Source: Halorussus limi
GTDB taxonomy: Archaea > Halobacteriota > Halobacteria > Halobacteriales > Haladaptataceae
NCBI RefSeq assembly: GCF_023238205.1
Contig: NZ_CP096659.1
Location: 1,240,001-1,304,000 of the forward strand
Direction of reading: 5' to 3'
Length of the DNA: 64,000 nt
The notes beneath the pieces are model-generated. The model was not told where the DNA came from. It did not search any database and was given only the letters and a program-made list of their open reading frames with translations. A program made the translations under genes and the position numbers. Shown in pieces: positions 51,026 through 55,798 of this stretch (positions within the stretch are counted from its first letter, which is position 1; each line of letters opens with the position of its first letter).

Positions 51026-52210
51026 ATGCGAGTAGTAGCGAAGTTCGGCGGGACGAGTCTCGGAAGCGGCGACCGAATCAACCGCGCGGCCGACTCGGTC
51101 GCCGACGCCGTGGCGCAGGGCCACGAAATCGCGGTGGTCGCCAGCGCGATGGGCAACACGACCGACGAACTCCTAGACGAGATAGCGTTCGAGACCGAGG
51201 AGGCCGACCGGGCCGAAATCGTCAGCATGGGCGAGCGAACCAGCGTCCGCATGCTGAAGGCCGCCCTCGCGGCCCGCGGGGTCGAAGCCGTCTTCGTGGA
51301 ACCCGGCAGCGAGCGGTGGCCGGTCTTCACCGACGAGAACGGCGAACTCGACGCCGAGCGAACCAAGGAGGCCGCCGCGAAACTCGCCGCGGAACTCGAC
51401 GGCGTGGTCCCGGTCGTCACCGGGTTCCTCGCGGAGGACCCCGAGGGCAACGTGACGACGCTCGGTCGAGGCGGTTCGGACACCACCGCCGTCATGCTCG
51501 GCAACTACATGGACGCCGACGAAGTCGTCATCGTGACCGACGTGGAAGGCGTCATGACCGGCGACCCTCACGTGGTGGAGGGCGCGCGGAACGTCGGCGA
51601 AATATCGGTGGACGAACTCCGGAACCTCTCGTTCCGCGGAGCCGAGGTCGTCGCGCCCAGCGCGCTCTCGTACAAGAACGAGAACCTGAGCGTCCGCGTC
51701 GTCCACTACCAGCACGGCGACCTGCTGGCCGGTGGTACCGACATCATCGGCGAGTTCGAGAGCCTCATCGACATGCGCGAGGAACCGCTGGCCTGTCTCA
51801 CGGTCGCGGGCCGGGCCATCCGGAACCGGCCGGGCATCCTACAGGACCTCTCGACAGCGCTCGGCGACAGCGACATCAACGTCGACGCGGTCGCCAGCGG
51901 GATGGACTCGGTGACGTTCTACGTGGACGAGACGGTCGCCGAACGCGCCGAGAACATCCTCCACCGCGAGGTCATCGACGAGGAGTCGCTGTCGAGCGTC
52001 ACGGTCGACGACGACGTGGCGGTCGTCCGCGTGATGGGCGGCGAACTCCCGAACCAACCGGGCGTCATCCGGAACCTCGTCGTCCCTATCGCGGACGCCC
52101 ACATCAACATCCACGACCTCATCACCAGTGCGACCAGCGTCGCCGTCTTCGTGGACTGGTCGGACCGCGAGGAGACGCTGGACATCATTCAGGCGGAGTT
52201 CAACAACTGA
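51026..52210 (+). CDS. lysC: Aspartate kinase
   Basis: A 394-residue enzyme phosphorylating aspartate at the head of the Lys/Thr/Met pathway. The N-terminal kinase domain has VVAKFGGTSLGSGDRI, VVVASAMGNTTDELL-type, LGRGGSDTTAVMLG, and the substrate loop VEGVMTGDPHVVEGARNV. Two ACT domains follow (IRNRPGILQDLSTALGDSDINVDAVASGMD; LPNQPGVIRNLVVPIADAHINIHDLITSATS), so feedback control by an amino acid is expected. ATG 51026 is supported by a strong ribosome site. Downstream is the pheST leader. Confidence 0.92.
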   Translation: MRVVAKFGGTSLGSGDRINRAADSVADAVAQGHEIAVVASAMGNTTDELLDEIAFETEEADRAEIVSMGERTSVRMLKAALAARGVEAVFVEPGSERWPVFTDENGELDAERTKEAAAKLAAELDGVVPVVTGFLAEDPEGNVTTLGRGGSDTTAVMLGNYMDADEVVIVTDVEGVMTGDPHVVEGARNVGEISVDELRNLSFRGAEVVAPSALSYKNENLSVRVVHYQHGDLLAGGTDIIGEFESLIDMREEPLACLTVAGRAIRNRPGILQDLSTALGDSDINVDAVASGMDSVTFYVDETVAERAENILHREVIDEESLSSVTVDDDVAVVRVMGGELPNQPGVIRNLVVPIADAHINIHDLITSATSVAVFVDWSDREETLDIIQAEFNN

Positions 52211-52277
52211 CCGTCCGGCGGGTACCGGTCCCCGGCGCTTCGGCCCGTCCGCGCTTCGCCGGGGGCCGCCCCGGAAC

Positions 52278-52290
52278 GTTTTTTAGCGAT
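52278..52290 (+). promoter_or_regulatory. Promoter of the pheST leader transcript
   Basis: CGTTTTTTAGCG is centred about 26 bases before ATG 52309, the standard distance between the TATA box and transcription start in archaea. A transcript from here would begin at the leader ATG. The same T-run could also end the lysC transcript. Confidence 0.55.
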
Positions 52291-52308
52291 TGCGAACAAC
52301 TGCCGAGC

Positions 52309-52392
52309 ATGCCATCCGAACCCCCACTCGGTGGGAGCGCTCGCCAGCCACGCCACCAGCGCGCGGGGTTCGGCTTCTTCTTCGCGTCCTGA
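52309..52392 (+). CDS. Candidate Phe-rich leader peptide upstream of pheST
   Basis: A 27-codon frame, ATG 52309 to TGA 52390-52392, beginning MPSEPPLGGSARQPRHQ and ending RAGFGFFFAS. Four of the last eight residues are phenylalanine, all TTC, three of them consecutive. The TATA box about 26 bases upstream fits a leaderless start. The next gene is pheS, 146 bases downstream, with no strong promoter of its own. In Escherichia coli the analogous pheM leader also has a Phe cluster and controls pheST by attenuation. The similarity in layout is seen; the function is inferred. Confidence 0.6.
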   Translation: MPSEPPLGGSARQPRHQRAGFGFFFAS

Positions 52393-52429
52393 CCGAGCGG
52401 CGGACTTCCCGGCCGGGCGAGGACCTCGG
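52316..52429 (+). promoter_or_regulatory. Possible attenuator RNA in the pheST leader
   Basis: Three mutually exclusive pairings are visible. CCGAACCCC (52316-52324) pairs perfectly, nine bases, with GGGGTTCGG (52365-52373), just before the TTC run. CTCGGT (52327-52332) can pair with ACCGAG (52392-52397) at the leader stop. CCGAG (52393-52397) can instead pair with CTCGG (52425-52429). The nine-base hairpin is followed directly by CTTCTTCTTCG, a pyrimidine tract made of the Phe codons. Confidence 0.4.
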
Positions 52430-52538
52430 CGGGAACGAAACCGCTCGTGCGCGGTCGTCGGCCAGCGACGCGACCGCGCTTCAGAAACGATAAGCGGGCG
52501 CACGGACACGTACGGACAACGAGCGACCCAGAGACACG

Positions 52539-54047
52539 ATGAAACTACCCGAATCACAGGTCGCGGTGTTACGAGCCGCGAGCGCGAACGACGCACAGAC
52601 CATCGACCAACTGGCCGACGAGACCGACCGCAAGCCCGAGACGGTCACGGGCGCGGCCTTCGAGTTGGAGGACGAGGGTCTCGTGACGGTCGCGGAATCG
52701 ACCGACGAGACCGTGACGCTGACCGACGAGGCCCGCGAGTACCTCGAAGACGGCCTCCCCGAGGTCCGACTCTACGAGGCCGCGACGGACGCGGGGGCCG
52801 ACGAGGAACCGGTCGAGATGGGCCGGGTCATCGGCCAGTCCGGACTCGAAGGTCCGCAGGTCGACATCGCACTCTCGAACTACGCCCGGAAGGGGTACGG
52901 CACCATCGAGAGCGGCGAGATTACGGCCGACCCCGACGCCGACCCCGAGAGCGACGCCGAAGCCAGCGCGCTCGCCGCACTCGACGCTGGCGAGTCGGCA
53001 GACGACGAGAGCGTGTTGGAGCAGTTAGAGCGGCGCGGACTCGTCGAACTCTCCGAGTCCACGGTTCGCTCGGTGACGCTGACCGACGAGGGCGTGACCG
53101 CGATGATGGAGGGCGTCGAGACGGCAGAGACGGTCGGCCAGTTGACGCCCGAGATGCTGACCTCCGGCGAGTGGCGCGACGTGGAGTTCGCGGAGTACAA
53201 CGTCAAGGCCGACGCCGAGCGCATCGACGGGGGCAAGACCCACATCCTGCGCCAGACCGCAAACAGGGTCAAGGACACGCTGGTCGGGATGGGCTTCGAG
53301 GAGATGGAAGGGCCCCACGCCGACGCGGAGTTCTGGATAAACGACTGCCTGTTCATGCCTCAAGACCACCCCGCGCGAACCCACTGGGACCAGTTCGCGC
53401 TGGAGAACCCACGGGAAATCGACGAGTTGCCCGAGGACCTCGTGGCCCGCGTCGAAGACGCCCACCGGAACGGCGTCGGCGATGACGGCGAGGGCTACCA
53501 CTCGCCGTGGACCGAGGAGGTCGCGCAGGGAATCGACCTGCGGGGCCACACCACCTCGCTGTCGATGCGGTACCTCTCGGGTCACGAGGTCGGTGAATTG
53601 GAACCGCCACAGCGGTTCTTCAGCGTCGAGAAGGTGTACCGCAACGACACTCTCGACCCGACCCACCTCCTGGAGTTCTACCAGATAGAGGGCTGGGTGA
53701 TGGCCGAGGACCTCTCGGTACGGGACCTGATGGGGACCTTCGAGGAGTTCTACGCCCAGTTCGGCATCACGGACATCGAGTTCAAGCCCCACTACAATCC
53801 CTACACGGAGCCGAGTTTCGAACTGTTCGGAACCCACCCGACGACCGGCGAGATGGTCGAAATCGGCAACTCGGGCATGTTCCGCGAGGAAGTCCTCTCT
53901 CCGCTCGGCGTCGAGTGCGACGTGATGGCGTGGGGCCTCGCGCTGGAACGCCTGCTGATGCTGATGTACGGCTTCGAGGACATCCGCGACGTTCACGGGA
54001 CGCTCGCCGACCTCGAACTGCTCCGCGAGACGGAGGTGCTACACTGA
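52539..54047 (+). CDS. pheS: Phenylalanine--tRNA ligase alpha subunit
   Basis: A 502-residue catalytic alpha subunit of archaeal/eukaryotic type. N-terminal winged-helix repeats (MKLPESQVAVLRAASANDAQTIDQLADETDRKPETVTGAAFELEDEGLVTV) occupy about 200 residues. Motif 1 and 2 regions follow (MGFEEMEGPHADAEFWINDCLFMPQDHPAR; FFSVEKVYRNDTLDPTHLLEFYQIEGWVM), and motif 3 is CDVMAWGLALERLLMLMYG. The ATG at 52539 has no ribosome site or close TATA box, consistent with transcription from the leader promoter. Its stop overlaps the pheT ATG by one base. Confidence 0.95.
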   Translation: MKLPESQVAVLRAASANDAQTIDQLADETDRKPETVTGAAFELEDEGLVTVAESTDETVTLTDEAREYLEDGLPEVRLYEAATDAGADEEPVEMGRVIGQSGLEGPQVDIALSNYARKGYGTIESGEITADPDADPESDAEASALAALDAGESADDESVLEQLERRGLVELSESTVRSVTLTDEGVTAMMEGVETAETVGQLTPEMLTSGEWRDVEFAEYNVKADAERIDGGKTHILRQTANRVKDTLVGMGFEEMEGPHADAEFWINDCLFMPQDHPARTHWDQFALENPREIDELPEDLVARVEDAHRNGVGDDGEGYHSPWTEEVAQGIDLRGHTTSLSMRYLSGHEVGELEPPQRFFSVEKVYRNDTLDPTHLLEFYQIEGWVMAEDLSVRDLMGTFEEFYAQFGITDIEFKPHYNPYTEPSFELFGTHPTTGEMVEIGNSGMFREEVLSPLGVECDVMAWGLALERLLMLMYGFEDIRDVHGTLADLELLRETEVLH

Positions 54048-55798
54048 TGCCAGTCGTAGACGTGAATCCCGACGAACTTCGGGAACTGACCGGCCACGAC
54101 GAGAAGAGCGACGACGAACTCATCGACGACATGTTCGCCCTCGGACTGGAGTTCGAGGGCCGGACCGAGGAGGGCGACCTCCAACTGGAGTTCGCGCCCG
54201 ACCGACTCGACCGCCTCTCGGTCGAGGGCGTCGCGCGGTCGCTGCGTTACCAGTACGGCGATGACCGCGGCGTCTACGTGCCGGGCACCAACGACGCCGA
54301 CTGGACCATCGAAGTCGACGAGTCGGTGCCCGAGGTGCGACCCTACGTCACCGGCGCGGTGATTCGGGACGTGGACCTGGACGACGAGGCGCTCGATTCG
54401 CTCATCCAGTTGCAGGAGAAACTCCACGCGACGATGGGCCGCAAGCGCGCGAAGGGAGCCATCGGCATCCACGACCTGACGATGCTGAAGGGGCAGGCCG
54501 CCACCGCCGAGGGCCAGACCGAGGCGGGCAACTCCATCGTCTACCGGGGCATCGACCCCGACGGCGACCGGTTCGTCCCTCTCGACTCCGACGCCGAGAT
54601 GACGCCCGAAGAGGTCCTGCGCTCGCATCCGACCGGCGAGACGTACGCCGACCTCGTCGCCAAGTACGACCGGTACCCCGCCATCTACGACGACATCGGT
54701 CTGTTCTCGTTCCCGCCGGTCATCAACGGCCGCCGGACGGAGGTCTCGACCGACTCGCGGGACCTGTTCGTGGAACTGACGGGCACCGACCAGTGGACCA
54801 TCGACCACATGTGCAACATCATCTGCTACGCGCTCGACGCCCGCGGCGCGAAGGTCGAGGAAGTCGAGGTCAGTTATCCCGACCGCGACCTCCTGCGACC
54901 CGACTTCGAGGTCCGCGAGAAGACCGTCACCCACGAGCGCATCGAGAGTCTGCTCGGCGTCGACCTGAGCGCCGAGCGCGTGTTGGACCTGCTGGAGCGG
55001 TCTGGGTTGGACGCCCGGACCGAGGAGGTCGGCGACGACGAGTTGGCCTACGAGGTCGAAGTCCCGCCCTACCGGGTCGACGTGTTGCATCCGCTCGACA
55101 TCGTGGACGACGTGGGCCGGGCCTACGGCTTCAACGACCTCGAACCGCGCTACCCCGACGTGGGGACGGTCGGCGGCCGCCACGACCGGTCGAAACTCGA
55201 AGACGCCGCCCGCGAACTGTTGGTCGGTCTCGGCTTCGAGGACCTGCTCAACTTCCACATGATAAGCGAGACGGAGAACTTCGACCGGATGGGACTCCCG
55301 CGGCCGGGCGAAGACGGCGACGCGCCGGACGCGGACGTTCTCGGTGCAGACGCCCCCGCGACCATCCTCGAACCCTACAGCGAGGACTACACCATGCTCC
55401 GGACGTGGGCGCTCCCCTCGCTGCTGATGGTCTTGGAGAACAACACTCACCGGGGCTACCCGCAGGACCTCGCGGAAATCGGTCTCGCGGCGCGCGTGGA
55501 CGAGAGCGAGAACACCGGAGTCGCCGAGCGCCGGACGGTCGCCGGGGTACTCGCGCGCCACGACGCCTCCTACGAGGACGCGAAGGCCCGACTCCAAGCT
55601 ATCGCACGCAACTTCGACGTCGAACTCGAGACGCCCCCGACCGACCACCCGACGTTCATCGACGGGCGCACGGCCTCGGTCGTTATCGACGGCGAGACAG
55701 TCGGGGTCATCGGCGAACTCCACCCGGAGGTGCTGGTCGAACACGACCTCGAACTGCCGGTCGCCGCGTTCGAGTTCCGACTCGACGCGTTAGAATAG
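54047..55798 (+). CDS. pheT: Phenylalanine--tRNA ligase beta subunit
   Basis: A 583-residue beta subunit, normal length for archaea (bacterial versions are near 800 with extra domains). It shows MPVVDVNPDELRELTGHDEKSDDELIDDMFALGLEFEG, the B3/4 editing region (FPPVINGRRTEVSTDSRDLFVELTGTD), B5 domain (RIESLLGVDLSAERVLDLLERSGLDAR), and the pseudo-catalytic domain (GLGFEDLLNFHMISETENFDRMGL, YTMLRTWALPSLLMVLENNTHRGYPQDLAEIGL). It forms an alpha2beta2 enzyme with PheS. Start ATG 54047 overlaps the pheS stop. Confidence 0.95.
   Translation: MPVVDVNPDELRELTGHDEKSDDELIDDMFALGLEFEGRTEEGDLQLEFAPDRLDRLSVEGVARSLRYQYGDDRGVYVPGTNDADWTIEVDESVPEVRPYVTGAVIRDVDLDDEALDSLIQLQEKLHATMGRKRAKGAIGIHDLTMLKGQAATAEGQTEAGNSIVYRGIDPDGDRFVPLDSDAEMTPEEVLRSHPTGETYADLVAKYDRYPAIYDDIGLFSFPPVINGRRTEVSTDSRDLFVELTGTDQWTIDHMCNIICYALDARGAKVEEVEVSYPDRDLLRPDFEVREKTVTHERIESLLGVDLSAERVLDLLERSGLDARTEEVGDDELAYEVEVPPYRVDVLHPLDIVDDVGRAYGFNDLEPRYPDVGTVGGRHDRSKLEDAARELLVGLGFEDLLNFHMISETENFDRMGLPRPGEDGDAPDADVLGADAPATILEPYSEDYTMLRTWALPSLLMVLENNTHRGYPQDLAEIGLAARVDESENTGVAERRTVAGVLARHDASYEDAKARLQAIARNFDVELETPPTDHPTFIDGRTASVVIDGETVGVIGELHPEVLVEHDLELPVAAFEFRLDALE

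Follow-up and report, generated by a model that had tools for sequence, protein, structure and literature searches.

The pheST operon of Halorussus limi is preceded by a short open reading frame with a run of phenylalanine codons at its end. Comparison of haloarchaeal sequences establishes a conserved, structured Phe-codon leader at this position. The best explanation, and one that we consider likely, is that this leader acts in cis as a phenylalanine sensor for pheST. In the 64,000-nucleotide stretch analysed here (the window), the leader region lies between an aspartate kinase gene, its 5′ neighbour (51026-52210), and pheS (52539..54047, + strand, as are all the elements of the region described below), which encodes the alpha subunit of phenylalanine--tRNA ligase (NCBIfam NF003210 and TIGR00468, over cut-off) and is the presumed regulated gene. 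The beta subunit gene, pheT (54041..55798, NCBIfam TIGR00471 over cut-off), overlaps pheS by 7 bases. The leader frame (52309..52392) has 27 codons (MPSEPPLGGSARQPRHQRAGFGFFFAS), is predicted to be leaderless, and extends from an ATG at 52309 to a TGA stop at 52390-52392, with 146 nt separating it from pheS. Its putative control codons, TTC GGC TTC TTC TTC (52369..52383), specify F21 and F23-F25. The peptide matched no Pfam or NCBIfam family at E-values up to 10, PheM included.

To follow the leader in other species, pheS loci were collected via PheS across genomes of the family and the class, leaving 143 distinct loci once identical upstream regions had been removed. A counterpart of the leader precedes pheS at 122 of these (85%, a frequency that is biased, if anything low, for one part of the set, where loci were chosen because the hairpin model described below had found nothing). 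The 21 loci counted as lacking the leader include one that has it at a contig end (L088) and one, from a metagenome assembly, whose frame is shifted (L042). The 122 leaders are spread over many families and dozens of haloarchaeal genera and are 24-31 codons long, with a few longer. They carry 3-5 Phe codons at their end, with a mean of 3.7 Phe within the final ten residues versus 0.07 before them; FF occurs in 109 and FFF in 87 leaders, and the synonymous TTC and TTT swap freely. In some genera the leader has been kept and the hairpin lost, and in others both are gone; neither such a leader nor the hairpin was found in 20 pheS upstream regions from the same phylum outside the haloarchaea. The frame ahead of pheST, first noticed by a sequence-only reading of this DNA, is thus confirmed, and the comparison with relatives that it proposed comes out in its favour, for the ATG, the TTC run and the stop as well as for compensatory changes in the stem. 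Three Natrinema leaders (L071, L087 and L067) are stretched to 46-48 codons with stem and Phe run intact; in L071 and L087 the additional codons stem from a repeat, in frame, that separates the strands of the stem further. In many haloarchaea (G031, G047, G058 and others, from match coordinates), the other TrpRS gene, as opposed to the stand-alone one discussed below, lies directly 5′ of the pheS leader.

The leader has its own promoter, P1 (52271..52284), composed of a BRE (CGGAACG, 52272-52278) and a TATA-like T-run (52279-52284). Among the 122 relatives, the BRE is found at −37..−31 and the TATA box at −30..−26 from the leader ATG in practically all cases, its T-run occupying −29..−26, with a pyrimidine at −1. 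When the 1082 ATGs of the window were ranked with a promoter matrix trained solely on other genera, the leader ATG came first (20.3 bits vs. 14.1 for the next). The proposal of a TATA box at the leaderless distance is therefore upheld. Given the fixed BRE/TATA distance and the pyrimidine at −1, transcription from P1 is expected to begin with the first base of the start codon itself, at 52309.

A second promoter-like element, P2 (CAGAAACGATAAG, 52482..52494), is found between the leader and pheS. It corresponds to a GAAmCsnTAA motif that is conserved about 36-60 bases ahead of pheS in most loci, and may be a basal promoter. A second perfect 9-bp GC hairpin (52449-52479, with strands 52449-52457/52471-52479) lies directly 5′ of P2; it takes several forms within the genus and was seen in none outside it. 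The conservation of the P2-like motif at loci with and without a leader, and the existence of genomes in one genus (g8) that have lost the leader and kept P2, are what one would expect if the leader were a constitutive leaderless uORF without Phe sensing, P2 being the main driver of pheST and the upstream unit a short independent or occluding transcript. We consider this unlikely, since the Phe run, the stop spacing and two covarying helices (see below) are under selection. In addition, in loci L193 and L194 of another genus (g4) the leader stop lies only 35-37 nt before pheS, and the hairpin and P2-like motif have both disappeared; this leaves no room for P2, so that in these loci transcription of pheS has to come from P1.

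Transcript start data from Haloferax volcanii also bear on this question. In Table 2 of a dRNA-seq study (Babski et al. 2016, PMC4983044), pheS (HVO_2948) is listed with a long 5′-UTR containing a 26-aa uORF, with the start at the uORF and no additional start at pheS itself in that table, which argues against P2 as the main promoter. A transcription start between 52400 and 52539 had been put forward as an observation that would refute the attenuator; the conserved P2-like element does lie in this interval, whereas the H. volcanii table gives no start at pheS. Table 2 also includes a 23-aa uORF that precedes the tryptophan--tRNA ligase gene HVO_A0127, again with the start at the uORF. The uORFs are given there by length, pI and mass, an account that does not describe their Phe or Trp content, conservation, hairpins or regulatory role. 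The tabulated mass of the pheS uORF is 2772 Da, compared to 2793-2850 Da for the 26-aa leaders of other Haloferax species, and we infer from these tabulated values that it is the Phe leader.

Just downstream of the leader stop, comparative covariation and a covariance model revealed a structure that the sequence-only reading had not described, the post-stop hairpin (52394..52447). It consists of an outer helix (52394-52400/52441-52447), an internal loop (CGGAC, 52401-52405 / CGAAA, 52436-52440) and an inner helix (52406-52411/52430-52435). Both helices show compensatory changes, while the internal loop, YGGAC/CGAAA, is almost invariant. RNAalifold, applied to 42 aligned sequences, predicted eight pairs, all of which show double changes; in the ten-pair structure, double changes affect 8/10 pairs, 91.6% of cells are paired, and the total of 80 double changes compares with 27.6 in shuffles, none of 500 reaching the observed value. 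A regular expression located the hairpin after 112 leaders out of 122, and several of the remaining ten carry variants that it fails to recognise. The hairpin core starts 16-22 nt from the last Phe codon in 104 of these 112. With strict filters, the covariance model detects the hairpin in 184/391 haloarchaeal genomes, mostly in one copy, and in this genome at pheS only (E 2.7e-7, the next match being at 0.33). Candidate further copies in this genome, whether strict-pattern or weak model matches, sit in coding regions without leaders, and second matches in other genomes are weak, have no leader and look chance-like; both sets were discarded.

An internal loop that hardly varies between two covarying helices, in a hairpin that occurs in this genome at pheS only, is reminiscent of a protein site. 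PheRS or another protein might accordingly autoregulate by binding the post-stop hairpin, with the YGGAC/CGAAA loop as its recognition site and the leader of secondary importance. Such a scheme leaves the Phe codons and their fixed distance to the hairpin unexplained and three loci have lost the hairpin yet keep the leader, making it quite improbable in our view.

Other structural candidates in the region fared less well. Rfam covariance models, T-box included, gave no match. There is no U-tract terminator, the T content after the leader stop being 0.05-0.15, which makes an intrinsic terminator at the pheST leader unlikely, and a short attenuated RNA ending near 52390, as had been predicted, is unsupported for the same reason. 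Competing pairings had also been proposed at 52392-52397 (with 52327-52332 and about 52424-52428); the letters exist, but even members of the same genus do not keep the partner sequences, and comparison pairs 52394-52400 with 52441-52447 instead. A pairing between region 2 (see below) and region 4 (GGNUUCG/CGAAACC) was likewise rejected: it matches at 6/7 positions, the seventh being a constant mismatch, with no covariation and a fold probability of 0.

Within the leader itself, a perfect nine-base stem joins region 1 (52316..52324, codons 3-6) to region 2 (52365..52373, the Gly-Phe-Gly codons). This stem had been noted from the single sequence and proved real on comparison by covariation, slide and shuffle tests: across relatives, 98.1% of positions pair in register, a share that drops to 9-72% once the strands are slid by one to four bases, and the total of 986 pairs exceeds the 943 obtained with strands reassigned (0/2000 shuffles as high). 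Where codon 5 (first base) faces the Gly codon (third base), T-A is seen in 53, C-G in 48 and T-G in 19 cases (n=121), while C-A never occurs; CCC/GGG, for example, alternates with TCC/GGA. On the PheS tree, about 4 co-changes go in the right direction and practically 0 against, too few for significance alone.

The amino acid exchanges in the leader track this pairing. Ser to Leu (CTC) is accompanied by Gly to Asp (GAC), Pro CCT is found with Arg AGG, and Arg CGC with Ala GCG; in the L204 leader (MPSNP), CGAACCCC is retained in another reading frame. Because the exchanges follow the stem, even out of frame, the conserved N-terminus of the leader is largely an RNA feature, whereas the Phe run is a feature of the codons. 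This bears on the idea that the frame encodes a functional micropeptide, to which conservation of the start, the stop and the C-terminal GFGFFF would lend some credit; RNA pairing accounts for the N-terminal conservation, the L204 case included, the middle of the peptide varies in length and sequence, and no Pfam or NCBIfam family matches it, so that we view a micropeptide as very improbable. Single-sequence folding energies are ordinary (z-scores of 0.06 and −0.01 for the region and −1.97 for the post-stop hairpin), so that the evidence for the structures is comparative; this is all that would favour a chance frame or annotation artefact, already refuted by conservation through many families and dozens of haloarchaeal genera.

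In the cis-acting sensor that we favour, the P1 transcript would start at the leader AUG, and a ribosome would load on the leaderless end and translate as far as the Phe cluster. With ample Phe-tRNA, the ribosome would reach the stop, where its footprint would melt the hairpin's outer helix, and the leader stem would close again in its wake. With scarce Phe-tRNA, the ribosome would wait on the Phe run, holding the leader stem open and leaving the post-stop hairpin intact. The two ribosome states would be read as less versus more pheST expression, the synthetase being raised when phenylalanine is short. Folding of 52309-52484 with the bases under the ribosome held unpaired, assuming a footprint of about 30 bases, is consistent with this scheme. 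Both hairpins are predicted to form without a ribosome (0.95 and 0.98). Placing one on the Phe codons brings the leader stem down to 0.0 and leaves the outer helix at 0.97-0.99; a position at the stop gives 0.84 and 0.0, respectively. In this model, then, the leader stem and the outer helix swap according to whether the ribosome is waiting on Phe or has gone to the stop.

The leader stem and the post-stop hairpin do not overlap, and there is no classical exclusion between antiterminator and terminator. The locus combines a putatively translated short frame, rich in codons for the amino acid of the downstream operon, with covarying RNA helices that change with ribosome position in masked folding; the hairpin plus U-tract and the exclusive antiterminator of an E. 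coli-type intrinsic attenuator are not found here. We infer stalling at the Phe codons, the sense in which expression responds and the step at which it is changed. The change in pheST expression may come about through FttA-type termination, RNA decay or translation. As there is no U-tract terminator, FttA-type factor-dependent termination or transcript protection is the most likely output; archaeal polarity has been attributed to FttA (PMC12548453). The original idea of a Phe-codon leader and RNA structure controlling pheST is, in its main part, strongly supported by conservation, covariation and the Trp parallel described below, whereas the competing pairings at the stop and the short RNA are not.

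A parallel arrangement is seen before a stand-alone TrpRS gene, present in 136/391 haloarchaeal genomes. In the first set of loci (L244-L264), a leader-like frame lies upstream of TrpRS in every case, and 20/21 of these frames contain WRW or a comparable double-Trp motif (L251 has a single Trp, and L262 a GTG start only), and it is also found in most of 70 further loci (to L343), giving 73 distinct leaders in total. These leaders are leaderless and carry WRW or WRWW codons, and the TrpRS uORF is, from its sequence, a probable Trp leader peptide. In this genome, the Trp leader is MESALRTWRWQSPGERTVS (L244 1030-1089; G000:C1 about 991,600), outside the window; it was located via the TrpRS gene and not via a Trp-run pattern, which when applied to this genome gave chance matches only (one of them, MGESPWAWW, belongs to a longer open reading frame). 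Early codons of the leader pair with later Gly/Arg-Ala-Asp codons to form a stem laid out like that of the Phe leader, which is 96.6% paired in register, compared to at most 60% when slid, and which has undergone large strand exchanges (GTCCGCTCCC/GGGAGCGGAC and GTCCACTTCCC/GGGAAGTGGAC). A U-rich tract follows 20-50 bases past the stop (T 0.23-0.34 vs. about 0.1); its resemblance to region 1 allows it to pair with region 2, with a score of 18.5 vs. 16.0 ± 0.34 in base shuffles. Judged by these sequence features, the Trp arrangement is close to a classical attenuator. No such leader was found in 30 loci each of hisS and trpE, showing that the Phe and Trp leaders are not a by-product of the search.

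Translated leaders that sense amino acids are a textbook mechanism in bacteria, where ribosome-mediated attenuators of the trp/his type place control codons inside a structured leader and where pheST of E. coli is attenuated via the leader peptide PheM. The haloarchaeal Phe leader shares with pheM-pheST a short frame with a Phe cluster at its end, a proposed stall on the Phe codons and hairpins around the leader. It differs in its leaderless promoter, in lacking a U-tract intrinsic terminator and in having hairpins that are not mutually exclusive; no sequence kinship with PheM was detected in Pfam or NCBIfam. The analogy drawn earlier with pheM therefore stands as a functional likeness but not as a copy of the E. 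coli attenuator, there being no U-tract terminator. The haloarchaeal Trp leader resembles bacterial trp/his attenuators in its 1:2 stem and U-rich tract complementary to region 2; unlike them, both systems are archaeal, and the Phe leader has no recognisable terminator. T-box leaders also regulate aminoacyl-tRNA synthetase genes, to our knowledge in bacteria only. GGUGGA in the haloarchaeal region resembles part of the T-box sequence; in contrast to a T-box, the pheS region has a leader peptide and no Rfam T-box match. A T-box-like pairing with tRNA ends was rejected, as the UGG is not constant (YGG).

In the open-access literature, we still found no archaeal case described, in agreement with the original note. 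The H. volcanii uORF was tabulated in 2016 (PMC4983044); as far as that table and the open-access literature go, we found no description of its nature, spread, structures or Trp parallel. On balance, we lean towards a haloarchaeal class of regulators in which leader peptides control aromatic aminoacyl-tRNA synthetases (Phe at pheST, Trp at the TrpRS paralog), a class that evolved independently of bacterial attenuators and acts on leaderless mRNAs, with FttA-type rather than intrinsic termination. Should the leader work as proposed, it would be evidence that transcription-translation coupling in archaea is tight enough for ribosome position to steer expression, and H. volcanii would offer a natural reporter that is easy to work with. 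The Phe leader, without a U-tract, and the Trp leader, with one, would allow a side-by-side comparison of two output modes.
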